Below are positions 829 through 14,109 of a DNA stretch of 14,439 bases, piece by piece. The notes below the pieces were generated by a model. The model worked only from the letters and a program-made list of their open reading frames with translations, was not told the DNA's origin and did not search any database. A program made the translations under genes and the position numbers. The stretch spans positions 1 through 14,439 of the forward strand of contig CANGYC010000028.1 in the NCBI GenBank assembly GCA_947457975.1, given 5' to 3'. The DNA is from Comamonadaceae bacterium. Its GTDB lineage: Bacteria; Pseudomonadota; Gammaproteobacteria; Burkholderiales; Burkholderiaceae_C. Positions within the stretch are counted from its first letter, which is position 1, and the number at the start of each line of letters is the position of its first letter.

Positions 829-1268
829 GCACTGGCCTTGATGTGAGAGACGGCCGCACGCAGTGCCAGCAGGTAGCTGTCGACGCCAAAGCCGGCAATC
901 TGGCCCTTGGCAATGGGCGCGATCACCGAGTGGTGACGGAACTCCTCGCGCGCATGGATGTTGGACATGTGCACCTCGAAGATGGGGCACTTGAGGATGG
1001 CCAGCGCATCGCGGACGGCATAGCTGTAGTGCGTCCAAGCGCCGGCATTGATGAGCACAGCCGCCGTGCCATCGGTGTGGGCAGCATGGATGCGCTCGCA
1101 CATGGCGCCTTCGAAGTTGGTCTGGAAGTTATCGACCTGGGCGCCCAGCTCACGGCCCAGGGCCACCAGCTGCTGGTTGATTTGCTCGAGCGTGATGGTG
1201 CCGTACTGAGCCGGGTCACGCTTGCCGAACATGTTGAGGTTCACGCCGTTGAGCACGAGGATGTTCAT
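825..1268 (-). CDS. aroQ: Type II 3-dehydroquinate dehydratase
   Basis: 147 residues, the normal size for the small dodecameric type II enzyme that interconverts 3-dehydroquinate and 3-dehydroshikimate in the cytoplasm. Seen: LNGVNLNMFGKRDPAQYG at the N-terminus with Arg17 and Tyr22 of the flexible lid and active site, QTNFEGAM (Asn51, Glu53), INAGAWTHYS (Asn74, His80), EVHMSN with the catalytic-type His100, and REEFRHHS (Arg107, Arg111). Odd: the family's INPGA reads INAGA (Pro to Ala at 75) and LNGPN reads LNGVN, mild divergence from housekeeping AroQ. A strong AAGGAG at 1280-1275 sits 6 nt before the ATG. It lies 30 nt after the Gfo/Idh gene and overlaps the AroE-like gene by 4 nt. Placement behind a TRAP transporter suggests a catabolic isozyme for quinate-type compounds (inference). 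Confidence 0.93.
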   Translation of the reverse strand: MNILVLNGVNLNMFGKRDPAQYGTITLEQINQQLVALGRELGAQVDNFQTNFEGAMCERIHAAHTDGTAAVLINAGAWTHYSYAVRDALAILKCPIFEVHMSNIHAREEFRHHSVIAPIAKGQIAGFGVDSYLLALRAAVSHIKASA

Positions 1269-1298
1269 GGAAGGCTCCTTGTTGGAATCGGTTGAGGT

Positions 1299-2351
1299 TC
1301 AGTCGAGCTCGACGACGCGCCCAGTGCGGGCCGCTTCGGCAATGGCCTCGGTCACGCACAGATTCTGCATCCCATCGCGGGCGCTCACCAGCGGCTCGGC
1401 CTGGCCCCGGATGACCTGCACAAAATGCGCCATCTGGCGCTGCAGCGGATCCTCGCGCACCAGGTCCACCCGGCCCTCCTCGAAGGGCTTCCACCAGGAG
1501 CTCTCTTCGGGGCCGGGGTAGGTCTTCAGGCGCATGGTGGGCACCGACAGGCTGCCCAGCGTGCCGGTGACCACATAGCAGTCTTCGTCGGCGTAGCTGG
1601 GATAGGCCTTGTTCTCCTGGCTGGTCTGCTCCCAGCTGCGGGCGCAGGCGGCGGTGTCGGAGAGCAGGAAACTGCCCAGCGCACCGCTGGCAAACCGCAG
1701 GTTGATGCTCACCGTGTCTTCCACCGCAAAGCCGCGCACCGCGTTCGAGGCAAAGGCCTGCACCGCCACGATGTCACCGCAGAGCATGCGCAGGTTGTGC
1801 ACCTCGTGAATCATGTTGATCAGGATGGGGCCGCCGCCGGGCTGGGTGCGCCAGGGGCCGTCGGCAAAGTAGTGGTCGGGCTTGAAAAACGCGGCGCTGC
1901 CCATCACGGCCACCAGCCGACCGAGCTGGCCGCTTTGGACCACCTCACGCGCCCGGGCCATGAGAGGGCTGTGTGCCCGGTGGTGGCCAATGAGCACCCG
2001 CGCCGTGGCGCTGCCGGCTGCGCGCACCAGCTGCTCGGCCTCGGCCACGGTGGGGGCGATCGGTTTTTCCACCAACACACTCACGCCCGCCGCCAGGCAT
2101 TGCAGCGCCTGCGGCACATGCAGCGCATTGGGTGTGGCCAGGATCACGCCATCCGGCCGGTCGTGTGCGAGCAAGGCCTCCAGGGCCGTGAAGTGCGGCA
2201 CGCCCTGCTGAGCGGCCAGCTCGGCGGCGGCCGGCGCAGGATCGACCACCGCGCACAGACGGGCGTCGGTGCGGCGGGTGAGCAGATCGATGTGGGTGCG
2301 GCCGATCAGGCCAGCCCCCGCCACCGCCAGGCGAAGTGCGTTCATGGTCAT
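1299..2351 (-). CDS. Gfo/Idh/MocA-family NAD(P)-dependent oxidoreductase
   Basis: 350 residues, the usual length for the family. Seen: an N-terminal Rossmann fold with AGAGLIGRTH (residues 11-20) and an acidic residue at the end of the second strand (VVDP, Asp37), the diagnostic EKP at 95-97 (catalytic Lys96), and a C-terminal alpha/beta domain with GGGPILINMIHEVHNL at 172-187 supplying Asn179, His182 and His185. Family members oxidise or isomerise hydroxyl groups on sugars, inositols and related cyclic polyols. The family does not fix the substrate, but the neighbours (AroQ, an AroE-like enzyme, a TRAP importer) point to a cyclic hydroxy acid. The start could be the ATG at 2351 or the second ATG at 2345; neither has a strong Shine-Dalgarno site. 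A GC hairpin (2365-2391) ends 13 nt before the start. Confidence 0.88.
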   Translation of the reverse strand: MTMNALRLAVAGAGLIGRTHIDLLTRRTDARLCAVVDPAPAAAELAAQQGVPHFTALEALLAHDRPDGVILATPNALHVPQALQCLAAGVSVLVEKPIAPTVAEAEQLVRAAGSATARVLIGHHRAHSPLMARAREVVQSGQLGRLVAVMGSAAFFKPDHYFADGPWRTQPGGGPILINMIHEVHNLRMLCGDIVAVQAFASNAVRGFAVEDTVSINLRFASGALGSFLLSDTAACARSWEQTSQENKAYPSYADEDCYVVTGTLGSLSVPTMRLKTYPGPEESSWWKPFEEGRVDLVREDPLQRQMAHFVQVIRGQAEPLVSARDGMQNLCVTEAIAEAARTGRVVELD

Positions 2352-2364
2352 CTTGGTCGCCCCA

Positions 2365-2391
2365 GGCCGGCTGCCTCAGGGCAGGCCGGCC
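2365..2391 (-). other. Intercistronic stem-loop between dctP and the Gfo/Idh gene
   Basis: On the plus strand GGCCGGCTGCC (2365-2375) pairs with GGCAGGCCGGCC (2380-2391) around a TCAG loop, giving 11 base pairs with one bulged base. There is no T-tract after it on the minus strand, so it is unlikely to be a full terminator. It lies 13 nt after the dctP stop and 13 nt before the next ATG. A likely role is 3'-end protection of dctP mRNA or partial attenuation (inference). Confidence 0.5.
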
Positions 2392-2404
2392 TCGGCAGGA
2401 CGGC

Positions 2405-3406
2405 TTATTTACGCACCTTGGCCAGCGTGTTCTGCACCTCTTTGAGCAGGTCCTGGCCGACGTTGACGCCGTACTTGGCCGTGACCGGGCGCATCTTGTC
2501 GCGCAACTTGCCAGACTCGGCGGCCGACAGCTCGGTGACCTGCATGCCGTTCTTCTTCATGTTGTCCAGCGCGGCTGCCACCTGACCACGGGCCTGCTGG
2601 CGCTGGAACTTGGCTGCTTCCTGGGCGGCATCTTGCAGGATCTTCTTTTGCGCAGCGTCCAGGGTGTCCCAGAACTTCTTGCTGATCACCACCGACTGCG
2701 GGTTGTACTGGTGGTTGGACAGCACCACGTGCTTCTGTACCTCGAAGAACTTGTTGGCATTGATCACGGTGACCGGGTTTTCCTGGCCGTCAATGGCTTT
2801 TTGCTCCAACGCGCCATACACCTCGGGGAAGGGCAGCGGCGTGGGGTTGGCGCCCAGGGCACGCACCCAGTCCACGTTGATGGGGTTGGGAATCACGCGC
2901 AGCTTCAGGCCTTCGAGGTCTTCGGCCTTGGTGATGGGGCGGCGGCTGTTGGTGATGTTGCGAAAGCCCAGCTCGAAGTAGGCCAAGCCCACCAAGCCTT
3001 TGTCCTGCAGCTTGTCATGCAGCTGCTTGCCGATGGGGCCGTCGATGATCAGCTCGGCCTCTTTCTCGTTGTTGAACAGGAAAGGGAAGTCATAGATGGC
3101 GAATTCCTTGACCTGGCTGGCGAAGATGCCGGAGTTCATGGAAGCCATCTCGAGCGTGCCGCCCTGGATGGCCGAGACATTGGCCTGATCGCTGCCCAGC
3201 GTGCCGCCGGGAAAGAGGTTGACCTTGATCTTGCCGCCGCTCTTGGCCTGCACGATCTCGGCAAACTTCTCCATGCCCATCACGATGGGATGGCCCTTGG
3301 GGTTTTGCGTGGCGAACTTGATGGTCTTGTCCTGGGCCTGCGCCAGGGGGACGAAGGCCGCTACGGCCAGGGCGGCCGCCAGGGCCTTGAGGGTCATGCG
3401 TTTCAT
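2405..3406 (-). CDS. dctP: TRAP transporter periplasmic solute-binding protein (DctP family)
   Basis: 333 residues, the usual TRAP binding-protein length. Seen: a Sec signal peptide (basic MKRMTLK, Ala/Leu core, likely cleavage after AQA at residue 24), then a two-lobe binding protein. GFRNITN carries Arg149 and GLKLRV carries Arg170, the positions where DctP proteins hold the substrate carboxylate. PEVYGALEQKAIDGQENP and the FFEVQKHVVLSNH region are typical of the family. It captures an organic acid in the periplasm and delivers it to DctQM. Start choice: ATG at 3406 with AGGAGA at 3416-3411. It is separated from dctM by 78 nt, so the order is Q-M-P rather than the common P-Q-M. Two GAACAGT direct repeats (3419-3425, 3433-3439) lie in its leader. 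Exact ligand unknown; a quinate/shikimate-like acid is suggested by neighbours. Confidence 0.95.
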   Translation of the reverse strand: MKRMTLKALAAALAVAAFVPLAQAQDKTIKFATQNPKGHPIVMGMEKFAEIVQAKSGGKIKVNLFPGGTLGSDQANVSAIQGGTLEMASMNSGIFASQVKEFAIYDFPFLFNNEKEAELIIDGPIGKQLHDKLQDKGLVGLAYFELGFRNITNSRRPITKAEDLEGLKLRVIPNPINVDWVRALGANPTPLPFPEVYGALEQKAIDGQENPVTVINANKFFEVQKHVVLSNHQYNPQSVVISKKFWDTLDAAQKKILQDAAQEAAKFQRQQARGQVAAALDNMKKNGMQVTELSAAESGKLRDKMRPVTAKYGVNVGQDLLKEVQNTLAKVRK

Positions 3407-3484
3407 GGTGTCTCCTGCGAACAGTACGCGTTGAACAGTTGGCTGTGCGCGGCGTACCAGACACGCACCACCAGGGATAGAAAA

Positions 3485-4765
3485 TCAGTGGTAGAGCCAG
3501 CGGGCCGGCACCATCACCAGCTCGGGGAACAGCACCAGCAAAAACATCACCAGCATCTGCACGGCCATGAAGGGCAGCACACCGCGCGTGACATCGTCCA
3601 TGCGCATGCGGCCCACGCCGGCCACCACATTGAGGACGGTGCCCACGGGCGGTGTGACCAGGCCGATGGAGTTGTTGATGATGAACAGCACGCCAAAGTA
3701 CACCGGGTCAATGCCAGCGGCTTTGACCAGCGGCATCAGCACCGGCGTGAGGATCAGGATGGTGGGCGTCATGTCCATGGCCGTGCCCACGATGATCACC
3801 AGCACCATGATGGCCGCCATCAGCAGCTTGGGGTTGTCCAGCAGAGGCTGCAGCAGCTCGATCACCTGGTTGGGCAGGTTGGCCACCGTGATCATCCAGG
3901 CCGAGACCATGGCCGCGGCCACCAGGAACATGACCACCGAGGTGGTCTTGGCCGAGGCAATGAACACGTCAATCAGCTGATTCCAGCGCAGCTCGCGGTA
4001 GACCACCGTGGCCACGAAGAGGGCGTACACAGCGGCCACCACCGCCGCCTCGGTGGGGGTGAACACACCCATGCGCAGACCCACCAGAATGATGACCGGC
4101 AGCATCAGGGCCCAGGTGGCGCGCCGCAGCGCCTTCCAGACCTCGCTGGCCGGCTGGCGCGGCGGGGGCGCAAGCTGCTCTTTTCGGGTGAGCCACCACC
4201 AGGTGAACCACAGGCCGGCACCCAGGAGCAGGCCCGGGAAGATGCCCGCCAGGAACAGCTTGCTGATGGAGACATTGGCGGCCACGCCAAAGATCACAAA
4301 GCCGATGGAGGGCGGAATGATGGGGCCGATCACGCCGCAGGCCGCAATCAGGCCTGCGCTGCGCGACTTGTCGTGGCCGGCTTTGATCATCATGGGCAGC
4401 AGCAGCGCCGTCAGCGCCGCCGCATCGGCCACGGCCGAGCCCGAGAGGGCCGAGAGCAGACAGGCCGCCAGGATGGTCACATAGCCCAGGCCGCCACGGA
4501 TGTGGCCCACCAGGGCCATGGCGAAATCAACGATGCGGCGCGACAGGCCGCCGGTGTTCATGATCTCGCCGGCCAGCATGAAGAAAGGCACGGCCAGCAG
4601 CGGGAAGCTGTTGGCGCCCTCGATCACGTTCTGCGCCAGGATCTGCGCATCGAACATGTCCATGTGCCACATGAGGGCCGCGCCGCACAGCAGCAGCGAG
4701 AAGGCAATCGGGATGCCCAGGGCCATGGCCCCCAGCAAAGCCCCAAGAAAGACGGCGATCGTCAT
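3485..4765 (-). CDS. dctM: TRAP transporter large permease subunit (DctM family)
   Basis: 426 residues, typical for DctM. This inner-membrane subunit couples substrate import to the sodium or proton gradient. Seen: about a dozen hydrophobic segments along the whole chain; conserved GSAVADAAALTALLLPMM; the GVIGPIIPPSIGFVIFG stretch with its double proline; the matching C-terminal NNSIGLVTPPVGTVLNV stretch; and the short hydrophilic loop KEQLAPPPRQPASEVW mid-protein. These internally repeated PP-containing hairpin regions are hallmarks of the DctM/IT superfamily. The ATG at 4765 follows the dctQ stop by 10 nt, so the two membrane subunits are almost certainly translated together. Nothing appears truncated. 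Confidence 0.96.
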   Translation of the reverse strand: MTIAVFLGALLGAMALGIPIAFSLLLCGAALMWHMDMFDAQILAQNVIEGANSFPLLAVPFFMLAGEIMNTGGLSRRIVDFAMALVGHIRGGLGYVTILAACLLSALSGSAVADAAALTALLLPMMIKAGHDKSRSAGLIAACGVIGPIIPPSIGFVIFGVAANVSISKLFLAGIFPGLLLGAGLWFTWWWLTRKEQLAPPPRQPASEVWKALRRATWALMLPVIILVGLRMGVFTPTEAAVVAAVYALFVATVVYRELRWNQLIDVFIASAKTTSVVMFLVAAAMVSAWMITVANLPNQVIELLQPLLDNPKLLMAAIMVLVIIVGTAMDMTPTILILTPVLMPLVKAAGIDPVYFGVLFIINNSIGLVTPPVGTVLNVVAGVGRMRMDDVTRGVLPFMAVQMLVMFLLVLFPELVMVPARWLYH

Positions 4766-4775
4766 GTTGGCGGTC

Positions 4776-5315
4776 TTACTTGAGTGGAGCAGGCACGATG
4801 ACCGGCTCTTCTTCGGATTCGCGCACGCCGATGAGTTCGGCCTCGCTGAGCTGGCCGGTGACCAGGCGCCAGAGCCTGTGCACCAGGATCAGGGCCACCG
4901 AGACCGAAGTGACCAGGCCGCAGGCATAGAAGATGCCCATGGAGACCTCCATCACCGCGCTGGTGGACGTGAGGTTGATCAGGGTCTGCTCATACGCGCC
5001 CTTGAAAAGCAGCCAGCAGACAAACAGCATCAGCAGGTGGCCGAGCACAAAGCACAGCTTCTTGCCGGCCCGTGGCAGGCGCGAGACCAGGGTGTCTGAA
5101 CCCAGGTGCGAGCCTTCGCGCATGGCCACCACGGCGCCTAAGAAGGTCATCCACACAAACAGCCAGCGCGAGAGCTCTTCCGACATGGTGATGCCGGAGC
5201 TGAAGGCATAGCGCAGCACCACGTTGGTGAAGACCAGCACCACCATGAGCGCCAGCCCCAGGGCCATGAGCCAGGACAGGAGGCGGCAGTAGCCGCCGAT
5301 CAAACGGTCAAGCAC
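4776..5315 (-). CDS. dctQ: TRAP transporter small permease subunit (DctQ family)
   Basis: 179 residues with four hydrophobic segments, the normal size and topology of the small TRAP membrane protein that partners DctM. Seen: the family signature region from NVVLRYAF through SEELSRWLFVWMTFLGA to MREGSHLG (about residues 31-72), followed by two more membrane helices and a charged tail rich in Glu. The start chosen is GTG at 5315 (GTG CTT GAC CGT), preceded by GAAGGGT about 8 nt upstream. It is the first gene of the transport operon. A candidate operator and promoter lie 29-53 nt upstream (5344-5368), and the tetR gene lies 90 nt upstream in the same direction. Confidence 0.93.
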   Translation of the reverse strand: MLDRLIGGYCRLLSWLMALGLALMVVLVFTNVVLRYAFSSGITMSEELSRWLFVWMTFLGAVVAMREGSHLGSDTLVSRLPRAGKKLCFVLGHLLMLFVCWLLFKGAYEQTLINLTSTSAVMEVSMGIFYACGLVTSVSVALILVHRLWRLVTGQLSEAELIGVRESEEEPVIVPAPLK

Positions 5316-5343
5316 GAAGAACCCTTCGGAAGTGCGTCCACGA

Positions 5344-5368
5344 CAGAATGTACCAACTGGTTAGTTTA
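5344..5368 (-). promoter_or_regulatory. Candidate TetR operator and -10 element before dctQ
   Basis: On the minus strand AACCAGTTGGTACATTCTG (5362-5344) contains the dyad ACCA-GT-TGGT. The same 19 bases occur with only two changes (AACCAGACGGTACATTCTG) at the start of tetR. Over 24 bases (5344-5367 versus 6056-6079), 20 match. A TAAACT hexamer (5368-5363) abuts the dyad and could be the -10 box; no good -35 was seen. A repressor bound here would cover the start of transcription. Operator assignment is inferred from the duplicated dyad next to the TetR gene. Confidence 0.65.
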
Positions 5369-5405
5369 CGACGGGACCGTAGAAACCCTGAGCCCCGAAC
5401 GCGGC

Positions 5406-6077
5406 TCAGCGCCGCACGAAGCGCACCACCATCTCGGCCACGTTGGCGCGGCGCAGGGCGCGGGCGGCCGGGGTGGAGAGATCGCGCTTGAAGATCTGCC
5501 CGAAGCTGTATTGGTTGGAGACATTGAAGAAGGCCAGCGCCGAGATGGAGGCATGGATGTCCACCGGGTCCAGGCCCTCGCGAAACACGCCCTCGGCCAC
5601 GCCGCGCACATACAACCGCTCGATGGCCGAGATGGCAGGCACATTGAGCTCCTGGATGATCTGGCTCTGCGCCAGGAACTTGCCGCGGGCGATGTTCTCG
5701 TTCATCACGATGCGGATGTAGTCCTCGTGGGAGCCGTGGTGGTCGAAGGTGAACTCCGCCAGGCGGCGCAGCGCCTCCTCGGGGGGCAGGTTGTCCAGGG
5801 TCAGCTCGGACTCGATGCGGCGCATCTCGCGGTAGCTGTGCTCCAGCACGGCCAGGTACAGGCCTTCCTTGCTGCCGAAGTAGTAATAGATCATGCGCTT
5901 GCTGGTGCGCGTGGCGGCGGCGATCTCGTCAATGCGCGCACCGCTCAGACCCTTGTCGGCAAACTCACGCAAGGCCACCTCGAGCATGCCGGCCATGGTG
6001 CGCTCGGGATCGTTGGTGCGCGAGGCCGCAGCCGGAGGCTTGGCCGGCGCGCGCGCAGAATGTACCGTCTGGTTCAT
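5406..6077 (-). CDS. TetR/AcrR-family transcriptional regulator
   Basis: 223 residues from the ATG at 6077. Seen: an N-terminal TetR DNA-binding domain from about residue 25 to 75, with EVALREFADKGLSGARIDEI and the recognition-helix region RTSKRMIYYYFGSKEGLYLAVL. A helical ligand-binding and dimerisation domain follows, including ENIARGKFL and FFNVSNQYSFGQIF, loosely like the RutR/YcdC-type C-terminal half (from memory). An in-frame ATG at 6170 would add 31 residues. I prefer 6077 because TATACT lies just upstream and the candidate operator straddles the start; neither ATG has a clear Shine-Dalgarno site. It probably represses the TRAP-aro operon downstream and its own gene in the absence of a small effector such as the imported acid or its CoA/keto derivative (inference). 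Confidence 0.9.
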   Translation of the reverse strand: MNQTVHSARAPAKPPAAASRTNDPERTMAGMLEVALREFADKGLSGARIDEIAAATRTSKRMIYYYFGSKEGLYLAVLEHSYREMRRIESELTLDNLPPEEALRRLAEFTFDHHGSHEDYIRIVMNENIARGKFLAQSQIIQELNVPAISAIERLYVRGVAEGVFREGLDPVDIHASISALAFFNVSNQYSFGQIFKRDLSTPAARALRRANVAEMVVRFVRR

Positions 6078-6079
6078 TT
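6056..6079 (-). promoter_or_regulatory. Candidate TetR autoregulatory operator overlapping the tetR start
   Basis: This is the second copy of the dyad-containing block found before dctQ, with 20 of 24 positions identical. It spans the tetR start codon (6077-6075) and codons 2-7. The dyad is ACC-AGAC-GGT here. Binding would block both initiation of transcription and elongation into tetR. Confidence 0.6.
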
Positions 6080-6083
6080 CGCC

Positions 6084-6089
6084 AGTATA
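6084..6089 (-). promoter_or_regulatory. Candidate tetR -10 box, implying a very short or absent leader
   Basis: TATACT on the minus strand (6089-6084) matches the -10 consensus in five of six positions and ends 6 nt before the ATG at 6077. Transcription would begin at or next to the start codon, fitting the lack of a Shine-Dalgarno site. No convincing -35 lies 16-19 nt further upstream. Confidence 0.4.
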
Positions 6090-6252
6090 GGAGTGCTGCG
6101 GCCGACCGCGCTCAGCACCGTTGACGAAATCGATCGCGGTGACCGAGGCCTTTTCGATAGTCCGCAGCATCGAGGTCTTCGGCCCGCAGGAAAGCTCTGG
6201 GCCAACCCTAGGGGATATCCCGGCCTTGCAGGGTCACAGCCCTCCCCCCATC
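6090..6252. promoter_or_regulatory. Divergent tetR/araC intergenic region
   Basis: This gap separates two divergently transcribed regulators. It contains a perfect 10-bp palindrome GGGATATCCC (6212-6221), 31 nt before the preferred araC-family ATG, and short arms TCGAT/ATCGA around 6154-6173. Either could be a regulator site. No strong sigma-70 promoter toward the araC-family gene was found; the TTGACG at 6121 lacks a properly spaced -10. Confidence 0.3.
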
Positions 6253-7206
6253 ATGGGCCACATGGAAGCGCGTGCGAATCCTCCTCCGAACGATGCAGTG
6301 CATCACCATCTGGTGCCGGTGCAATCCTTTGCAGACGGCATCGTCGGGCCGCGCTTTGGAATCCGCTCGCAAAAAATGGCCGCCGGCGACCGGCGCCTGC
6401 ACCGGCACGATTACTTCGAAATCCTGTTTTTCGTCTCCAGTGGAGCGCAGCAGCGCATCTACTTGCGCGACTACCTGAGCCGGCGAGGCAGCATCTTCTT
6501 TGTCTCGCCCATGACGCCGCACCAGCCGCGTTTCGGCCCGGACGACGTGTGTTACGTCATCTACTTCGACCTGGGTTTCATGCACCGCGAACTGACGGGT
6601 CTGCCGTCGGTGTCGCGGGACACCACGTCGCGCGTACCGGAACTCATGCCCTTTCTGTACCAGCAGGACATCGACTTTGCCTTGTCCGAGGCACAGGTCG
6701 AGCTGCTGCAGCAATTGTGCGAACGCATGCTGCGCGAGCAGCAGGAGCCGCGCATGTGCTCGCAGGAAGTCATCCGCGCCAACCTGATCCTGCTGCTGTC
6801 AGAGGTCAGCCAAAGCTATGAGCCGGAGATCAGCGCGCTCCTGCGCCGGCGCCCCGTGGTGACCAGCGGAGAGCGGCATGTGCAGCGAGCGCTGGACTTC
6901 ATCGAGCGTCACCTTGCGGAAAAACTCACGCTGTCTCAGGCGGCCGAGGCGGCCGCGGTGTCGCCTAATTACCTGGCGACACTGCTGCGCCGGGAGACCG
7001 GACAGACCTTCGTGGATCTTGTCACGGCCCGGCGTATGAATCGTGCGTGTGAGCTGCTGTCCTACACCCGGCTTCGCATCTCCCAGGTGGGCGATGCCGT
7101 GGGGTTTTTCGATGTCGACTATTTCTGTCGCCGCTTCAAGCAGATCATGGGCAGCACGCCCATGGAATACCGGGCGGCACACCGCCTGGTGCAAGTCAAC
7201 GAATAA
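6253..7206 (+). CDS. AraC/XylS-family transcriptional regulator
   Basis: 317 residues from the ATG at 6253. Seen: an N-terminal cupin-like sensor domain with LHRHDYFEILFF (His50, His52, Glu56) and RRGSIFFVSPMTPHQPRF, and a C-terminal AraC double helix-turn-helix from about residue 213 to 310. The latter includes LTLSQAAEAAAVSPNYLATL and the second-helix region ISQVGDAVGFFDVDYFCRRF followed by GSTPMEYR. This is the layout of AraC-type activators that respond to small molecules. The frame is open back to a TTG at 6121, and ATG at 6262 is also possible; no start has a clear ribosome-binding site. It is divergent from tetR and 124 nt ahead of the transketolase operon on the same strand, so that operon is its most likely target (inference). 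Confidence 0.9.
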   Translation: MGHMEARANPPPNDAVHHHLVPVQSFADGIVGPRFGIRSQKMAAGDRRLHRHDYFEILFFVSSGAQQRIYLRDYLSRRGSIFFVSPMTPHQPRFGPDDVCYVIYFDLGFMHRELTGLPSVSRDTTSRVPELMPFLYQQDIDFALSEAQVELLQQLCERMLREQQEPRMCSQEVIRANLILLLSEVSQSYEPEISALLRRRPVVTSGERHVQRALDFIERHLAEKLTLSQAAEAAAVSPNYLATLLRRETGQTFVDLVTARRMNRACELLSYTRLRISQVGDAVGFFDVDYFCRRFKQIMGSTPMEYRAAHRLVQVNE

Positions 7207-7330: not shown

Positions 7331-8140
7331 GTGCAAGCCGCTTCCCCTCCCGACTGGCGCCAACTGCGCCATCTGTCCCTGCGCATCCAGCTCAATGCCG
7401 TGCGCATGGTGTCCATTCAAGGCTTTGGCTACTTCGGCCAGGCGCTGTCTGCCGCCGAAATCTTTGCGGTGCTCTATGGCGCGGGCGTGCTGCGACCCGG
7501 CCACGACCGCTTCGTGCTCTCGCCCGGGCATTACGCGGTGGTGCTGTTTGCCGCGGCCGCCGAGCTGGGGCTGATTGATCGCGAGGAGATGGCGTCCTAT
7601 GGCCTGGACGGCGCGCTTCTGGAGGCCATCAGCACAGAAAGAACCCCCATGGTGGACCTGACCTGCGGCTCGCTGGGCCAAGGACTATCGGGCGGCATTG
7701 GTCTGGCGCTCGCCGCACGGCTGGCCGGTGACGGTCGCAACACCTACGCCTTCCTCAGTGACGGCGAGATGGAGGAGGGGCAGGTCTGGGAAGCGGCCAT
7801 GTTCGCATCCCACCATGGCCTGGACAATCTGACCGTGCTGATCGATGCCAACGACTCGCAGGTAGACGGCCCGGTCACCTTTGTGACCACCATTGAGCCG
7901 CTGGCCGACAAGTGGCGCGCCTTCGGCTGGGAGGTGTTCGACCTGGACGGACACGATCTGCAGGCGCTGCACCAGGCGATGACCGCACCCCGCCGAAACA
8001 GGCCGCGCGTGCTGATCTGCCGCACTCAAATCCTGGCGCGCATCAAGGCACTGCCCCCGAGCACTGACGCCCACTTCGTGAAACTGGACCCGGCGATGAC
8101 CGCCGCCATCGAAGCAGAACTGGAGGCCCAGCTTGCGTAA
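7331..8140 (+). CDS. Transketolase, N-terminal subunit (split transketolase)
   Basis: 269 residues, matching the N-terminal (thiamine diphosphate pyrophosphate-binding) half of transketolase. Seen: FVLSPGHYAVVL (His67; family usually SNGH), the GSLGQGL loop (residues 113-119), and the ThDP/magnesium motif SDGEMEEG with Asp144 and Asn174 in VLIDAND. These bind the diphosphate of ThDP through Mg2+. The start chosen is GTG at 7331, six bases after AAAGGA (7319-7324); an upstream GTG at 7286 is in frame but poorly placed. It overlaps the C-terminal subunit gene by 8 nt, as expected for a heteromeric enzyme. Such split forms transfer or cleave two-carbon ketol units. Their substrates in catabolic clusters are often not the pentose-phosphate sugars, so the real substrate is open. 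Confidence 0.92.
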   Translation: MQAASPPDWRQLRHLSLRIQLNAVRMVSIQGFGYFGQALSAAEIFAVLYGAGVLRPGHDRFVLSPGHYAVVLFAAAAELGLIDREEMASYGLDGALLEAISTERTPMVDLTCGSLGQGLSGGIGLALAARLAGDGRNTYAFLSDGEMEEGQVWEAAMFASHHGLDNLTVLIDANDSQVDGPVTFVTTIEPLADKWRAFGWEVFDLDGHDLQALHQAMTAPRRNRPRVLICRTQILARIKALPPSTDAHFVKLDPAMTAAIEAELEAQLA

Positions 8141-9134
8141 GCCCCCCTACGACATCGTCCTCAAGCCCTATGGCAAGGCCTTGCTGGATCTGGCGGCGCG
8201 CCGGCCCGAGGTGCTGTGCCTGGGCGCCGACCTGACACGACAGACCGAAACCGACCTGATTCGCGATCAGATGCCCGAGCGCTTCATCAACGTGGGCATG
8301 GCCGAGGCCAATATGATCGGCATCGCGGGAGGACTAGCTCGCGCCGGCCACACGGTCTTCGTGAACAGCTTCGGCGTGTTCTGCACACGGCGCTGCTATG
8401 ACCAGATTGCCATGGCGCTGGCCTATCCCAAACTCAACGTCAAAATCGCCGGCTTCATGCCCGGTGTCTCCAGCCCCGGCGGCCCCAGCCACCAGGCTAT
8501 TGACGACCTGGCACTGATGCGTGCGCTGCCGAACATGACTGTGTTCGACCTGTCCGATGCCACAGAGATCTCGCAGGCCGTCAACGTGGCCGCCGAGATC
8601 CAGGGTCCGGTGTACCTGCGGCTCAAAAGGGGCGAGATCCCGGTGATCTTCGGACAGGACCACGTCTTCGACGGCCGCCGTGCCCACGTGCTGGCGCGGG
8701 GCTCGGACCTGTGCCTGGTCGCCTCCGGAATGATGGTGCCGGCCACCCTGGCCGCCGCCGAGGTGCTAGAGCGTGAAGGCCTGAGCGTGGCTGTGGTCAA
8801 TTCGCCGGTGGTCAAGCCACTGGATGCACGCACCATCATCGAAGCGGCCCGCACCACACAGGTGGTGGTGACTGCCGAAAACCACTCGGTAATGGGCGGC
8901 CTGGGCAGCGCGGTGGCCGAAGCCATGGCTGAAGCCGGACTGGGCGCGCGTCTGGTGCGCATCGGTCTGCAGGATTGCTTTGCCGAGTCGGGAAGCCGGG
9001 AGTTCCTGTTCGAGAAATACGGCCTGAGTGTGCAGGCCATCATTGACGCGGCCTGGCACGCGCTGCGGCCAGGCACGCCCGTCCCGAAGGCGCCCCCTCA
9101 GGTGAGCGAACCTGGAACCTATGCCCCCGTCTGA
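8133..9134 (+). CDS. Transketolase, C-terminal subunit (split transketolase)
   Basis: 333 residues covering the pyrimidine-binding and C-terminal domains. Seen: INVGMAEANMIGIAGGLA with Glu58, the residue that activates the ThDP aminopyrimidine; family members usually have AEQN, here AEAN. Also seen are the FVNSFGVFCTRRCYDQI helix, VSSPGGPSHQAIDDLALMR with the expected His, LPNMTVFDLSD, and the C-terminal ENHSVMGGLGSAVAE. The start is TTG at 8133, six bases after GGAGG (8122-8126), inside the last codons of the N-terminal subunit, so translation is coupled. It forms the active enzyme with the upstream product. A DXS-like single polypeptide is excluded by the split and the length. Confidence 0.92.
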   Translation: MRKPPYDIVLKPYGKALLDLAARRPEVLCLGADLTRQTETDLIRDQMPERFINVGMAEANMIGIAGGLARAGHTVFVNSFGVFCTRRCYDQIAMALAYPKLNVKIAGFMPGVSSPGGPSHQAIDDLALMRALPNMTVFDLSDATEISQAVNVAAEIQGPVYLRLKRGEIPVIFGQDHVFDGRRAHVLARGSDLCLVASGMMVPATLAAAEVLEREGLSVAVVNSPVVKPLDARTIIEAARTTQVVVTAENHSVMGGLGSAVAEAMAEAGLGARLVRIGLQDCFAESGSREFLFEKYGLSVQAIIDAAWHALRPGTPVPKAPPQVSEPGTYAPV

Positions 9135-9169: not shown

Positions 9170-10033
9170 ATGTCCCTGCAGAAGTTCCCACCCATGCCCA
9201 CGTTCGAAGAAACCAAGGAACGTTTCAAGGATTTCTTCAAGCTCTCGCGCCGCCCTGATGGCGTGGTGCTGGCCGAAGCACACACCCTGGGCGGGCCCAT
9301 CCAGCTGAGCGTGGAAAACCACCGCGCCCTGGGCCTGATGCTCAAGGCCATTGGCGGCGATCCTGACAACGAGATCCTGATCCTGACTGGCTCCGGCCAG
9401 GAGTTCATGATGGACGCCGACCCCAACGGCTTCAAGCTCGAGGAAGAGGACATGCCCTACTGGGCCTATGAATACGCCTACAAGGACGGGCGCATCAACG
9501 TCAGCGCGCTGGTCAATGACCTGGAAATTCCCACCATCGGTGTGCTCAACGGCCCGGGCTTTCACACCGAGATCTGCCTGATGTGTGACATCAGCATTTG
9601 CGCCGACGACGCCACCATCTACGACCTGCACTACGACATCGGCTCGGTCCCAGGTGACGGTATCCACACCTGCTTTCAGACCTTGCTGGGCGTCAAGCGG
9701 GCGGCATACGCGCTGCTCACCGGTGAGGCCATCACGCCGCAAAAGGCGCTGGAGTGGGGCATGGTCAACGAGGTGCTGCCACGCGATCAGCTGATCAACC
9801 GCGCCTTCAAGATCGCAGACCACATCATGACTCAACCGCGCACCACGCGCCGGCTGACCACGCAGATCGTGCGCCGGCCCTGGCGCCAAGCGGTCACCGA
9901 CAGCCTGGACGGCGGTTTTGGCATCCAGATGTTTGGCCATCTGGCCAAGCTCAAGGGCGTGCACGGCAAACAGCACATCGCTGATGTGGTGGATTACGTG
10001 CGCAAAGGCAAACGCAACAACTTCGATAAGTGA
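9170..10033 (+). CDS. Crotonase-fold hydrolase resembling 6-oxocamphor hydrolase (beta-diketone C-C hydrolase)
   Basis: 287 residues. Seen: a crotonase core with ILILTGSGQEFMMDAD, NGPGFHTEICLMCDI, SVPGDGIH, and LLTGEAITPQKALEWGMVNEV. From memory of 6-oxocamphor hydrolase, several catalytic-site residues line up: His38 (HTLG) with its His45, His132 with His122, and His154 plus Asp163 with the His145/Asp154 pair, the last with the same 9-residue spacing. The glutamate at 244 of that enzyme does not appear conserved. Those enzymes cleave cyclic 1,3-diketones by a retro-Claisen reaction without coenzyme A, and the usual enoyl-CoA hydratase catalytic glutamates are not evident here. AAGGAG at 9156-9161 is 8 nt before the ATG. 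It lies 35 nt after the transketolase and overlaps the next gene by 4 nt. It could still be a CoA enzyme; automated annotation would probably say enoyl-CoA hydratase. Confidence 0.82.
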   Translation: MSLQKFPPMPTFEETKERFKDFFKLSRRPDGVVLAEAHTLGGPIQLSVENHRALGLMLKAIGGDPDNEILILTGSGQEFMMDADPNGFKLEEEDMPYWAYEYAYKDGRINVSALVNDLEIPTIGVLNGPGFHTEICLMCDISICADDATIYDLHYDIGSVPGDGIHTCFQTLLGVKRAAYALLTGEAITPQKALEWGMVNEVLPRDQLINRAFKIADHIMTQPRTTRRLTTQIVRRPWRQAVTDSLDGGFGIQMFGHLAKLKGVHGKQHIADVVDYVRKGKRNNFDK

Positions 10034-10986
10034 GTGCAGAAATGGGCCAGAACGTGACCGTGAAAGAGTTGGGCCACATCGGCTGGCTCGGGATAGGCAA
10101 CATGGGGTTGGCCATGGCGCGCCGCCTGGCCGATGCCGGTGCGCACCTGAGCGTCTACAACCGTTCGCCTGAAAAAGCCGAACCCCTGCGCGCCCACGGC
10201 GCGCAGGTGGCGCGCTCGCTGCAGGACCTGGCCGGCTGCGACATCATCGTCACCATGCTGGCCACAGGCGATGTGGTCGAGGACCTGTTGCTGGGTAACG
10301 CGGGCCTGCTGAGCCAGTCTGGGGGGAAGAAGCCGAAGGTCGTGATCGACTGCTCCAGCATCTCGGTGGAGACCTCCTCGTCCATCCGCGCGCGCCTGGC
10401 TACCATGGGTGTGGCTTTCATTGCCGCACCCGTGAGCGGGAACCCCGAGGTGGTGGCCATGGGCAATTCCACCTTTGTCTGCTCTGGACCACCAGAGATG
10501 GTGGAGCGCCTCAAGCCCCTGTTCATGAGCGTAGGCAAGGCCGCCAGCTACGTGGGCGAAGGCGAGTTGGCGCGCGTGGCCAAAATCTGCCACAACGTCT
10601 GGCTCGGCGGCGTCAGCCAGACGCTGGCCGAGGTCTTGGTCCTGGGGCAAAAGGCCGGCCTGACGCGCGAGGCATTTCTCAATTTTCTGAACCAAAGCGC
10701 GATGGGCTCAGCCTTCACCAAGGGACGTACGCCCTCCTGGGTGGCCCTGGATGGTGCAGCCGGTTTTTCACCCTGGCTGATGCGCAAGGACATGGACCTG
10801 GGCTTGGACCTGGCCAAGTCGCTGGAGATGCCCATGCCCCTGTCCAACACCGCCAGGGATTTTCTGCAGGCACTGATCAATTCCGGCGACGCCGAGGCAG
10901 ACTTCACGCAAGGACTGATGCAGTTGCAGGCGCGTGCTTCTGGCCTGCAAATGACACCGGAAAAAAGCGCAGGCGATCGCCACTGA
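10030..10986 (+). CDS. 3-Hydroxyisobutyrate-dehydrogenase-like NAD(P)-dependent oxidoreductase
   Basis: 318 residues from GTG at 10030, near the family norm of 290-310. Seen: N-terminal Rossmann motif GWLGIGNMGLAMARRL (Gly21, Gly23, Gly26) with YNRS after the second strand, whose Asn44-Arg45 would favour NADP; the substrate motif APVSGN at 133-138 (family SGG); and the catalytic helix with Lys185 and Asn189 in AKICHN. A late MRKDMDLGLDLA stretch is also typical. Enzymes of this family oxidise beta-hydroxyacids or reduce the corresponding semialdehydes. The GTG overlaps the crotonase stop (GTGA), consistent with coupling; an ATG at 10042 is an alternative start four codons in. It is the last gene of the plus-strand operon, and its substrate is likely a product of the C-C cleavage steps (inference). 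Confidence 0.9.
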   Translation: MSAEMGQNVTVKELGHIGWLGIGNMGLAMARRLADAGAHLSVYNRSPEKAEPLRAHGAQVARSLQDLAGCDIIVTMLATGDVVEDLLLGNAGLLSQSGGKKPKVVIDCSSISVETSSSIRARLATMGVAFIAAPVSGNPEVVAMGNSTFVCSGPPEMVERLKPLFMSVGKAASYVGEGELARVAKICHNVWLGGVSQTLAEVLVLGQKAGLTREAFLNFLNQSAMGSAFTKGRTPSWVALDGAAGFSPWLMRKDMDLGLDLAKSLEMPMPLSNTARDFLQALINSGDAEADFTQGLMQLQARASGLQMTPEKSAGDRH

Positions 10987-11015: not shown

Positions 11016-11046
11016 GTGGGCCGCCCGAGATGCTCGGGCGGCCCAC
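11016..11046 (-). terminator. Strong intrinsic terminator between convergent genes
   Basis: GTGGGCCGCCCGAG (11016-11029) and CTCGGGCGGCCCAC (11033-11046) form a perfect 14-bp stem with an ATG loop. On the minus strand the stem is followed by TTTCTTCT, so it terminates the binding-protein operon. On the plus strand there is no T-run, but the hairpin may still slow or end transcripts from the dehydrogenase side. Confidence 0.85.
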
Positions 11047-11070: not shown

Positions 11071-12045
11071 TCAATCCTGCGGCTTGATCCCCGCCGCCTT
11101 GACGATCTGCTCAGAGACCTTGAACTCCTGGGCTAGGAAGCTGCGGAATGCATCCACACTCATGGGCATGGGATCGGCACCGAGCTTTGCAAAGCGGTCC
11201 CTGACCTCTGGCGAGGCCAGTGCCGCCTGCACCTCCTGGTTTATCCGCGCGATGATGGGTGCGGGGGTCTTGGCCGGTGCAAAGAGCCCGATCCAGAGCG
11301 TGTAGGCCGAGTTCGGCACACCGGCTTCCTCGGTGGTAGGCAGATCCGGCAGCAGCGAGGAGCGCTCCTTGGAGCCGACCGCCAGGGCCTTGAGCTTGCG
11401 GTCCTTGACGGCGCCCATCACGGAAACGCCCGGTGCAAAAAACCAGTCGACTCGCCCGGCCATGGTCTCGGTCACGGCCTCGGGCGTGCCTTTGAAGGCG
11501 ATGTGCTCCGCGCTCAGACCCGAGGCAATGCGGAACTTCTCGGAATTCATGTGCGTTCCGCTGCCCACACCGGCCGAGGCGTAATTGAGCTTGCCGGGTC
11601 TGGACCTGGCGGCAGCGAGCAATTCCTGCACTGAATTGACAGGTGACTGCGGACTGACGACCAGAATATTGGGCAGGCTGCCCAGGGTAGCGATGCCGAC
11701 AAAATCGGTCGCACTGTCGTAGGGCAGATTGCGATAGAGATGCGGGTTGACGGTGTGCGCATTCGAATTGGCCAGCAAGGTATAGCCGTCGGGCTCGGCC
11801 TTGGCCACATGGGCTGCACCGATCGTGGTGCCCGCCCCAGCGCGGTTTTCAATCACCACCGGCTGGCCCAGCCGTGCCTGCATGCGTTCGGCCACGGCGC
11901 GTACCAGCACGTCGGTGGCACTGCCAGGGCTGATGGGTACGACGATCTTGATAGGTCGGTTTGGATAGGCCGCCTGACCTTGCGCGGACACGCCGGCAAC
12001 GCCACCGGCAAGTACAAGACAAACCAGAAGTCGGGACATCTTCAT
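11071..12045 (-). CDS. Bug/TctC-family periplasmic solute-binding protein
   Basis: 324 residues, the usual length for Bug proteins. Seen: a Sec signal peptide (MKMSRLLVCLVLAGG, probable cleavage after VSA at residue 21), then YPNRPIKIVVPISPGSATD (family YPxRPIxxVVPxxPGGxxD), VIENRAGAGTTIGA, and AEPDGYTLL. The common PGG reads PGS. These proteins bind small organic acids in the periplasm, either for a TctAB permease or as sensors. No TctA/TctB gene is present in the window, so it is an orphan here. Start chosen at ATG 12045 with AAGGAG at 12060-12055; an upstream in-frame start at 12105 would lie inside the amidohydrolase gene and spoil the signal peptide. It follows the amidohydrolase by 19 nt and presumably handles that enzyme's substrate or product. 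Confidence 0.93.
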   Translation of the reverse strand: MKMSRLLVCLVLAGGVAGVSAQGQAAYPNRPIKIVVPISPGSATDVLVRAVAERMQARLGQPVVIENRAGAGTTIGAAHVAKAEPDGYTLLANSNAHTVNPHLYRNLPYDSATDFVGIATLGSLPNILVVSPQSPVNSVQELLAAARSRPGKLNYASAGVGSGTHMNSEKFRIASGLSAEHIAFKGTPEAVTETMAGRVDWFFAPGVSVMGAVKDRKLKALAVGSKERSSLLPDLPTTEEAGVPNSAYTLWIGLFAPAKTPAPIIARINQEVQAALASPEVRDRFAKLGADPMPMSVDAFRSFLAQEFKVSEQIVKAAGIKPQD

Positions 12046-12064
12046 GATGGTGCTCTCCTTGGGC

Positions 12065-14032
12065 TTACACAGTGCACGGGCAGGCGGTGCGCCAGTTGCC
12101 CGCATCGGAAATGATCAGGGGGTGCGGGTGGCTGGCCAGGGGCGTCTGCGGCGGCAGGCCCGCGCTCTTGGCATAGCGGCCATATTCCTTGAAAGGCAGC
12201 CAGTCCTGATTGATCCTGGGAGCCGGCAAAGCCAGCTTCTCATAAGCGCCTGCCCCATAGGCCACCCGACCACCGACCATGGTCATGACCGATTCGAGGT
12301 TGCGGATCTCGTCGACCGGCACGGTGAAGTAGTCGTCGGAGAGAAACAGCAGGTCGGCCAGCTTGCCCACTTCGAGGGTGCCCTTGAGATTCTCTTCGCG
12401 CGACATCCAGGCGCCGCGCTCGCTGTACATGCGCAGGGCGGTGGTACGGTCCAGCAGGTTGCGATCTCCTTGCAGCTTGGCGCCACCAAGGGTCTTGCCG
12501 GTGACCAGCCAGTGCACGCCCACCCAGGGGTTGTAGCTGGTGGCACGGTTGCCGTCGGTGCCAGCGGCGATCGGCAGACCCATTTCCATCATGCGCCGGA
12601 TGGGGGGCGCATCGGCCGCAACCTGTGCGCCGTAACGCTGCAGGAAGGCTTCGCCGTCGAGCGACATCCGGTTCTGGATATTGACGCTGCCACCGAGCTT
12701 GGCGATGCGCTCCAGCGTTTGAGGCGAGAGGGTCTCGCAGTGGTCGAAACCCCAGCGCAGCTTGTCGATGGGCACTTCCCGATGCACCTTCTCGAGGACA
12801 TCCAGGGCGCGTGCTGCAGTGTTATCGAAACTGGCATGCATGCGAAACGGCCAATTCATGCCAGCCAGGTACTTACCAACAGCGGTCAGCTGGGTCTCGA
12901 GCACCGCCGGAACGATGGGCTGGGAGTCCTTCGCGAAGTTCGAGACATCGCCAAGCGCCCAGACGATGTACTCTCCCGCACCAATCATGCGGTAGTAGTC
13001 ATCGCCCTGCCCAATGCTGACCATCTTGGACCAGGTCTGGTAGTTCTCCAGCTCCTTGCCGCCGGACTGCGCAAAGAGCTGGTAGCCAATGCGCAGCGTC
13101 AGCTGCTTGTTCTTGGCGAGCTCAGCCACAGCGGCATAGTTCTCCGGGTAGTTCTGCCCGCCGCCGCCCGCGTCAAGCACACTGGTCAGACCCAGGCGGT
13201 TGTTCTCGCGCATGAAGTGCAAGGTCGACAGGGTCTGGTCCTCGGCAGGAAGGCGGGGCACACGCAGCCAGGTGGCCACCAGGCCGGGAAGAATGCCCAC
13301 CAGCAAGCCCGTCGGATCACCGCGGGTGTCACGGTCAATCACGCAGCCGAAAGGATTGGGGGTCGTGCGATTCCAGCCCAGAACCCGCATGGCGGCCTTG
13401 TTCAACCACAGGCGGTCGTACATGTGCATGATCATGGTGGGCACATCGCCGGTGGCGGCGTTGATCTCGTCGAGCGTGGGGAAGCGTCGCTCGGCAAATT
13501 GCGCCCATGTCCACCCGCCAATGACCTGGATCCAGTGCGGCGAGGGTGTCCGCGCGGCCTGCAGTCGCAGCATGCGCAAGCCGTCCGCCAAAGAAGGCAC
13601 GCCGTCCCAGCGCACCTCGTTGGTGTATGTCAGGCCGCCACGGATGAAATGGGTGTGGGCGTCGATGAGGCCAGGGATGACCCGCCGCTTTGCCGCATCA
13701 ATCACCCGCGTATCGGGACCCCGAAAACGCATGATCTCTGCATCCGTGCCGAGTGCGACGATCTTTTCTCCACGCACGGCCAGCGCGCTGACCTCTGGCT
13801 GCTTGGGATTGAGCGTAGTGATGCGGCCACCGATGATGAGGGTGTCCGCAGGCTCCACCGCAGGTCCGGCCGAGGCACAACCGACCAGGGCGACGCTGGG
13901 GGCGCCAACGGCCAGTCCGAGGCCTGCAAGGTCCTTGAGGAATCCACGCCGGCCAAAGTAAGCCTGGGCAGATTCGACGGGGGTCGAGCAATTGGGATCG
14001 ATGCAATCAGCGATACCGCACACATCCAGCAT
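12065..14032 (-). CDS. Tat-exported YtcJ-like amidohydrolase, putative lipoprotein
   Basis: 655 residues. Seen: a twin-arginine signal at 27-33 (GRRGFLK) followed by a hydrophobic stretch and LVGC at 49-52, which fits a lipobox, so the mature protein may be anchored by Cys52. The catalytic body belongs to the amidohydrolase_3/YtcJ group: a beta-rich start (TLIIGGRITTL), the metal-binding DAHTHF (His126, His128), later candidate ligands His399 (RMHAS) and His431 (FDHCE), and GTDGN with Asp493. The family hydrolyses amide or related bonds with one or two metal ions. The 655-residue length is above the common 530-600, partly because of the export signal. AAGGAG at 14044-14039, 6 nt before the ATG, fixes the start, which leaves an unusual leader with Cys5, Cys10 and Cys15 ahead of the Tat motif. 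It heads a two-gene operon with the Bug protein. Substrate unknown. Confidence 0.93.
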   Translation of the reverse strand: MLDVCGIADCIDPNCSTPVESAQAYFGRRGFLKDLAGLGLAVGAPSVALVGCASAGPAVEPADTLIIGGRITTLNPKQPEVSALAVRGEKIVALGTDAEIMRFRGPDTRVIDAAKRRVIPGLIDAHTHFIRGGLTYTNEVRWDGVPSLADGLRMLRLQAARTPSPHWIQVIGGWTWAQFAERRFPTLDEINAATGDVPTMIMHMYDRLWLNKAAMRVLGWNRTTPNPFGCVIDRDTRGDPTGLLVGILPGLVATWLRVPRLPAEDQTLSTLHFMRENNRLGLTSVLDAGGGGQNYPENYAAVAELAKNKQLTLRIGYQLFAQSGGKELENYQTWSKMVSIGQGDDYYRMIGAGEYIVWALGDVSNFAKDSQPIVPAVLETQLTAVGKYLAGMNWPFRMHASFDNTAARALDVLEKVHREVPIDKLRWGFDHCETLSPQTLERIAKLGGSVNIQNRMSLDGEAFLQRYGAQVAADAPPIRRMMEMGLPIAAGTDGNRATSYNPWVGVHWLVTGKTLGGAKLQGDRNLLDRTTALRMYSERGAWMSREENLKGTLEVGKLADLLFLSDDYFTVPVDEIRNLESVMTMVGGRVAYGAGAYEKLALPAPRINQDWLPFKEYGRYAKSAGLPPQTPLASHPHPLIISDAGNWRTACPCTV

Positions 14033-14079
14033 GACAGTCTCCTTGGAGCGTTGGGAAGCGTCGTCAAACGACTTGTCTG

Positions 14080-14109
14080 ATTAACGCCCCGGAGCCCCGC
14101 CACCGTCAA
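14080..14109 (-). promoter_or_regulatory. Candidate promoter for the amidohydrolase operon
   Basis: On the minus strand TTGACG (14109-14104) and GTTAAT (14085-14080) are separated by 18 bases. They match the sigma-70 consensus in five and four of six positions. The -10 ends about 47 nt before the ATG at 14032, leaving room for a normal leader with the strong ribosome-binding site. Confidence 0.4.

Follow-up and report, generated by a model that had tools for sequence, protein, structure and literature searches.

Which reaction does a crotonase-family protein carry out when its gene is flanked by a split transketolase and a hydroxyacid dehydrogenase? The question arises from the window (the whole 14,439-nucleotide stretch of Comamonadaceae DNA analysed here), which comes from an incomplete draft assembly (77.8% complete, 302 contigs). 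An open reading frame of the forward strand (9170..10033, 287 amino acids, preceded by a Shine-Dalgarno-like GGAG stretch) encodes the crotonase, hereafter CRO. A sequence-only reading of this DNA had described the frame, which is indeed there, as a 6-oxocamphor hydrolase (OCH)-like protein that might cleave the ring of another cyclic 1,3-diketone.

Gene layout of the window

Upstream of CRO lie the N-terminal half (7331..8140, +; PF00456; longest open reading frame from 7286) and the C-terminal half (8133..9134, +; PF02779 and PF02780) of a split, non-canonical transketolase. Downstream follows a 3-hydroxyisobutyrate-dehydrogenase-family NAD(P) enzyme (HIB; 10030..10986, +; PF03446 and PF14833), the first 4 bases of which are shared with the end of CRO (a later start at 10042 is possible). 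The flanking genes are thus those that the sequence-only reading had named, and the arrangement recurs in close loci. The NCBIfam model nearest to HIB was that of 3-hydroxyisobutyrate dehydrogenase (with scores below the cut-off of each of the 11 matching models), and its best PDB matches were probable 3-hydroxyisobutyrate dehydrogenases. An AraC-family regulator (6313..7206, +; longest open reading frame from 6121), placed by the open reading frame list, the domain scan and the codon-score calls, is situated upstream of the operon.

HIB and a TctC receptor gene converge, and the gap between their ends holds a 14-pair hairpin (11016..11046) that may be a shared terminator; as the terminator scan returned 4 sites in the window against a shuffle mean of 2.8, the hairpin is weak evidence when taken alone. 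The receptor (11071..11991, −; PF03401, E 1.4e-74) is of the tripartite tricarboxylate transporter type and could be an uptake component, its kin being found in two of the 59 close loci (see below), both of which are near-copies of the window (L009 and L010). Beyond it, the domain scan recovered an Amidohydro_3 amidohydrolase (12065..14032, −), with relatives in six of the 59 loci (near-copy L009 included); those of L031 and L047 lie within or alongside the CRO genes. With a twin-arginine-like RRGFLK stretch and a Cys of lipobox type at its N-terminus, the window enzyme may be an exported lipoprotein; among the six relatives compared, only that of L009 shares this start.

The left part of the window (1-6170, −) holds a divergent operon (TetR with a TetR_C_29 domain, TRAP DctQ/DctM/DctP, a Gfo/Idh dehydrogenase, a class II 3-dehydroquinase and a shikimate-dehydrogenase-type protein) that, by its predicted gene products, looks like one for quinate/shikimate uptake and catabolism. 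An inositol/quinate pathway was rejected as part of the CRO module: the Gfo/Idh gene of this operon was kept out of it because it recurs in a single one of the 59 loci, the near-copy L009. Two very long open reading frames antisense to real genes (2336-4783, +, 815 aa; 12044-14080, +, 678 aa) are GC-rich shadow frames and were dropped by the codon-score caller.

Relatives and active site of the crotonase

CRO matches a single Pfam family, the general crotonase family PF00378 (E 7e-25), and the proteins of its family, where named in the sources, are called enoyl-CoA hydratase or assigned to the hydratase/isomerase family. Searched against all solved structures (phmmer), it retrieved first two kinds of CoA-free diketone hydrolase, OCH (1o8u, E 2.3e-32; 1szo, E 1.7e-31) and the Anabaena beta-diketone hydrolase ABDH (2j5g, E 6.4e-30), followed, after a gap of more than nine orders of magnitude, by an enoyl-CoA hydratase (E 1.7e-20). 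Among the best 25 of its 58 NCBIfam matches, all scores fell far under the cut-off (the top one reaching 109 bits versus 354), and no curated hydratase-model cut-off was attained.

Residues were placed by sequence alignment, using the phmmer pairwise alignments of the PDB search and a MAFFT family alignment. The latter comprised 58 rows, i.e. the window and 57 of the 59 close loci (CRO was missed by the gene caller in L051 and is partial in L067); counts over 57 rows also leave out L061. The catalytic residues of ABDH (Anabaena Alr4455; PDB 2j5g, 2j5s) are H43, H144, D153 and E243 (PMC3584854). In CRO, they correspond to His51 (codon 9320..9322, +), His154 (9629..9631, +), Asp163 (9656..9658, +) and Gln253 (9926..9928, +), hence three are kept and the fourth is not. 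Chain positions 154 and 163 of ABDH are its H144 and D153, which puts H43 at chain position 53, opposite His51; the latter is also aligned with chain position 45 of OCH. The sequence-only reading had taken His38 for the first catalytic His, an assignment that now passes to His51: His38, thirteen residues earlier, is conserved in OCH, ABDH and 58/58 family rows and is outside the published ABDH list. The other letters it pointed to (His132, His154 nine residues ahead of Asp163, and SVPGDGIH at 159-166) are all in the protein, as is His38 itself, and the VPGDG loop is found in OCH as well.

His51, His132 (9563..9565, +), His154 and Asp163 are invariant in the 58 family rows. Jointly they occur in 57/57 family rows, in both OCH/ABDH rows, in 9 of 13 intermediate rows and in none of the 12 hydratase-type rows, nor in any of the seven further crotonase-like proteins that the window's genome encodes (several of which aligned poorly). 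We take them to be the counterparts of His45, His122, His145 and Asp154 of OCH, respectively, which would make His122 the residue aligned with His132; in the hydratase-type rows this position is Gly (12/12). From the Glu pair of the hydratases CRO keeps one member (E134) and has His154 at the position of the other, in what we presume to be the register of the rat enzyme. The rat catalytic pair is E144/E164 (PMC3584854).

The column of ABDH Glu243 (chain position 253) is occupied by Gln253 in the MAFFT alignment (Q in 58/58 family rows) and by Phe255 in the phmmer alignment, and the window protein contains no Glu beyond residue 201. A Gln here does not set the CRO family apart, as it also occurs in 10 of 12 hydratase-type rows. 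For OCH, we assume that the fourth catalytic residue is Glu244, again with no Glu to match it in CRO (the aligned OCH fragment ends at 241). Judged from the alignment, Asp247, invariant in 57/57 family rows and six residues before Gln253, might act as a stand-in for the missing Glu. The two proteins also differ in length (257 residues in OCH versus 287 in CRO) and at OCH Trp40, where 57/57 family rows have Leu (Leu46 in CRO). An eight-column signature reads HLHHEHDQ in each of the 57 family rows, HWHHEHD in OCH (the last column lying outside the fragment) and HFHHEHDE in ABDH.

The tree was built from 48 rows (18 of the 57 family rows were used, and the long or odd rows L069_3, L079_6, L072_2, L072_3 and L072_4 were left out). 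It recovered the CRO family as one clade (support 98/99). The phylogeny that the sequence-only reading had named as a check came out in its favour insofar as a branch (89/97, under the starring threshold) separates the hydratase-type rows from this clade, OCH, ABDH and the intermediate rows; a very long row of the window's own genome falls on the latter side too. An exclusive clade of the CRO family, OCH, ABDH and L087 was marginally disfavoured (p-AU 0.044); in the tree ABDH pairs with L087, not with the CRO family.

An enoyl-CoA hydratase was rejected for CRO on four counts (His154 at the E164 position, the altered oxyanion loop, the order of PDB matches and the tree), and so was a simple OCH orthologue (Trp40 and the Glu are lost, and terpene genes are absent among the neighbours scanned). 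The likeness to OCH that had been claimed therefore stands as regards the nearest solved relatives and lapses as regards the tetrad Glu and Trp40; the claim of a setting other than a terpene cluster was borne out by the scanned neighbour proteins (a part of all neighbours), none of which is a terpene gene. Because of the missing Glu and the Leu46 replacement we set CRO apart as a distinct subfamily, and do not class it as an OCH/ABDH member, as the defining catalytic residue is absent. By sequence comparison, it probably acts like OCH and ABDH, likely on another substrate.

Distribution and partners of the family

A scan of species genomes recovered at least 78 distinct loci, 59 of which (L009-L067) make up the close family (60-99% identical in the best segment) and are scattered over Pseudomonadota, Actinomycetota and Acidobacteriota. 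L009 (99%) and L010 (97%) are near-copies of the window, and hence not independent. In a protein search with CRO, the best 120 of 1,755 matches were all at least 76% identical and 283-293 amino acids long. At E 1e-60 CRO was detected in 1 of 399 genomes of the order and 1 of 398 of the phylum (its own genome in both cases), and at E 1e-30 in 2 of 299 genomes of the family (its own and G071, 35% identical). No close relative was found on plasmids, all 855 records being below 60% identity. The family is thus rare and patchy in the window's lineage, which fits an accessory, mobile catabolic trait.

Neighbour genes were called with a codon-score gene caller, clustered, and then searched with reference proteins; open reading frames chosen by length are shadow frames in GC-rich loci. 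Counts refer to the whole fetched locus, in which some partners (e.g. the dehydrogenase of L036) lie several kilobases from CRO, and absences are overstated, since only 34 of the 59 loci reach 16 kb. Both halves of the split transketolase were present in 27/59 close loci (one half in 2 more), and a 3-hydroxyisobutyrate-dehydrogenase-family enzyme in 31/59 (20 at least 37% identical to that of the window, and 11 more distant). A 2-oxoacid/acetoin-type complex was represented by E1 in eight loci and by E2 in six, and eight loci without both transketolase halves carried E1 and/or E2. None of the 27 loci with both transketolase halves had E2, compared with 6 of the 32 others, which suggests that one thiamine-dependent cleavage system takes the place of another; as E1 occurs in 3 of the 27, the two systems are not strictly exclusive. 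No thiamine enzyme (transketolase or E1/E2) was seen in 22/59 loci, many of them clipped by contig ends.

Further recurrent genes were those for a GntR regulator (18/59), for amidohydrolases (10/59 in all; Amidohydro_1-type in 6, Amidohydro_3-type in 6) and for succinate-semialdehyde-dehydrogenase (SSADH)-like enzymes (10/59). TIGR01780 (SSADH) was the top model for all four aldehyde dehydrogenases of L023, L034, L024 and L056, each scoring below its cut-off, and one of the four matched a solved succinate-semialdehyde dehydrogenase at E 7.3e-141. In 11 control loci (around hydratase-type relatives) there was no transketolase, dehydrogenase, amidohydrolase or E1/E2, with one SSADH and one TctC; these controls are mostly from Nocardia and Corynebacterium and therefore amount to few independent cases.

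The best PDB matches of the split transketolase were to the Carboxydothermus hydrogenoformans enzyme (PDB 6yaj, 6yak; E 7.3e-46 for the N half, 4.3e-79 for the C half), with which it shares the two-gene layout. The canonical donor/phosphate-site motifs SGHPG, GHP and TH...GEDG are replaced in the window: where the Carboxydothermus enzyme has SGHPG, GHP and THAGLTVGEDGASHQ, the window enzyme has GFGYFG, no His and GFMPGVSSPGGPSHQ. Over 28 family rows for the N half and 29 for the C half, most of the replacement letters are conserved at 95% or more, and a few at 80% or more. We presume that the replaced motifs make the donor, acceptor and phosphate contacts, and a non-phosphorylated donor is thus likely.

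Some of these genes were also observed apart from CRO. A Streptomyces plasmid (L095) encodes the dehydrogenase (45%), an M24 hydrolase (72% to that of L026), SSADH and E1/E2, with CRO absent in the 18.9 kb fetched, indicating that this half of the module travels alone as well. On a Variovorax paradoxus plasmid (L094, 8009-13716; C half 51%; no CRO in the stretch fetched), a related split transketolase shares a gene run with an amidase gene and one of the penicillin-acylase family; another, on an Ensifer plasmid (L096, 3690-9114; C half 44%), is flanked by methylthioribose kinase/isomerase genes and by a RuBisCO-like gene. In two Oxalobacteraceae MAGs (L033, 137-8861; L039, 2663-15153) a molybdenum enzyme, its FeS partner and an MMPL transporter are found by a close CRO orthologue; the molybdenum enzyme matches pyrogallol hydroxytransferase (E 2.4e-279) in L039 and PF21423 in L033.

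Proposed pathway and competing readings

We reason, with somewhat better than even confidence, that CRO is a CoA-independent retro-Claisen hydrolase acting on a cyclic 1,3-diketone or the corresponding enol, and that the keto acid formed would be broken down by a thiamine enzyme and dehydrogenases. The sequence basis consists of the OCH/ABDH kinship, the three retained ABDH catalytic residues, the E164-to-His exchange and the recurrent transketolase/dehydrogenase module; CRO, the two-piece transketolase and the dehydrogenase together suggest an undescribed route of ring-compound breakdown. Against a CoA-independent hydrolase speak the missing catalytic Glu (Gln throughout the family alignment) and the merely distant relatedness of OCH and ABDH.

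In the proposed mechanism, the His154-Asp163 dyad would activate water for attack on one ring carbonyl while His132 would steady the oxyanion, and the retro-Claisen C-C break would yield a free keto acid; His51, in another setting without the tetrad Glu, may be tuned to another substrate. HIB would then adjust the keto acid or its fragment, and a thiamine-diphosphate enzyme would cut the ketol. In the window this role would fall to the split transketolase, moving a ketol unit that apparently does not derive from a sugar phosphate, and in sister loci to an acetoin-dehydrogenase-like E1/E2, giving an acyl-CoA. An SSADH-like enzyme would oxidise the leftover semialdehyde acid. The amidohydrolases may release the diketone from a precursor bearing an amine, and in one lineage it may be formed from a polyphenol by a pyrogallol-transhydroxylase-like molybdenum enzyme. 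The exchange of transketolase for an acetoin-dehydrogenase-like complex, followed by an SSADH-type enzyme, fits the cleavage of a ketol (R-CO-CHOH-R') to a two-carbon unit and a semialdehyde acid. A more specific version is rather doubtful, namely that of a horizontally spread module in which a Glu-less retro-Claisen hydrolase is joined to a split transketolase that has ceased to bind sugar phosphates and cuts a non-phosphorylated ketol acid to a semialdehyde for the SSADH-type enzyme, with sister lineages choosing between transketolase and the acetoin-dehydrogenase-like complex by the hydroxyl on the end carbon of the opened ring.

CRO could instead act on a CoA thioester: as a hydrolase or lyase of the crotonase type, it would then handle a cyclic beta-oxo acyl-CoA of some aromatic or alicyclic pathway. 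Crotonases mostly work on CoA substrates, and CRO does match PF00378; moreover, its distant kin in L070, L071 and L074 adjoin thiolase-like and ChsH2-like zinc-ribbon/OB-fold genes (L070 and L074 by clustering). We nonetheless hold this to be unlikely: the close loci centre on a transketolase and a dehydrogenase of a free-acid family, the E164 position is His, the oxyanion-loop glycine has given way to His132, and the nearest solved relatives are CoA-independent, OCH being so and ABDH being termed so in the title of a reference of PMC3584854. Among the more distant OCH-type kin, L071 lies by an acyl-CoA ligase C-terminal domain and a thiolase, and L075 by BKACE, a CoA transferase pair and a thiolase, i.e. 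enzymes expected downstream of a free keto acid.

As regards the substrate of the favoured diketone hydrolase, the leads are hydroxyhydroquinone-type triones and mycosporine-type enaminones. By the former, CRO would open the triketone form of hydroxyhydroquinone (1,2,4-trihydroxybenzene) or of a hydroxylated homologue, and the keto acid would pass through a ketol to acetyl/glycolaldehyde units and succinic semialdehyde. A described route of resorcinol degradation hydroxylates the compound to hydroxyhydroquinone, dearomatises it oxidatively and then cleaves the product hydrolytically (PMC10470551). The triketone form would give a ketol-type product, and the two Oxalobacteraceae loci (L033 and L039, with CRO 72 and 70% identical) combine CRO with the molybdenum enzyme and its FeS partner, L039 adding E1/E2/E3 and one of the SSADH-like genes counted above. 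These two loci are close relatives, and so nearly one observation, and such a molybdenum enzyme was not found in transketolase-type loci. A search for CRO (E 1e-5, 35% of the query) around resorcinol-hydroxylase-like molybdenum genes, in loci picked regardless of CRO, found it in 0 of 6 loci (five other Burkholderiales genomes, 15-20 kb each, one clipped by a contig end). A general link with these enzymes was accordingly rejected, and we regard hydroxyhydroquinone as an improbable substrate.

The weakest candidate is a gadusol/deoxygadusol-type enol-diketone freed from mycosporine-like enaminones by the amidohydrolases and then opened by CRO, which the presence of amidohydrolases in 10/59 loci (that of L011 being related to SAH/MTA deaminase and atrazine chlorohydrolase, i.e. 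deaminases and triazine hydrolases, a class of enzyme that exchanges an amine on an sp2 carbon for oxygen) and of oligopeptide-type transporter genes in L043 and (by clustering) L048 would suit, but which we consider very improbable, since mycosporine-specific genes are lacking, the substrates of the amidohydrolases may be different compounds, deoxygadusol has no hydroxyl of the kind that transketolase chemistry would want, and no report of such a link was among the open-licence papers listed.

The favoured retro-Claisen route has a parallel in Clostridium scatologenes, where dihydrophloroglucinol cyclohydrolase likewise opens a cyclic beta-diketone, ahead of a dehydrogenase and C-C cleavage. 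That enzyme belongs to a Mn-dependent 'cyclase' family, and the second C-C cleavage is made by a BKACE-family lyase, not by a transketolase (PMC10470551). It is of another sequence family and mechanism, and its identity with CRO was rejected on this ground. The Flavonifractor plautii locus L075 (3228-11011) contains two tandem OCH-type crotonases, a 3-hydroxyacyl-CoA-dehydrogenase-type protein, the CoA transferase pair, thiolase and BKACE, and L073 has a like neighbourhood by clustering; these clusters resemble the published phloroglucinol cluster with crotonases at the place of the Mn cyclase.

Very few crotonases are known to open carbocyclic 1,3-diketones hydrolytically without CoA. By title or abstract, none of the open-licence papers found on diketone-hydrolase crotonases was about a transketolase cluster, and among the open-licence papers listed there was no account of the CRO, split transketolase and dehydrogenase gene set, which is weak evidence of absence. 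As the sources that name these proteins call them enoyl-CoA hydratase or place them in its isomerase family, annotators would gain a rule from the CRO family. A family with an altered tetrad, tied in three phyla to a transketolase that lacks its customary donor motifs, offers a definite new pathway that can be tested; if true, this pathway would couple a retro-Claisen step to ketol cleavage.
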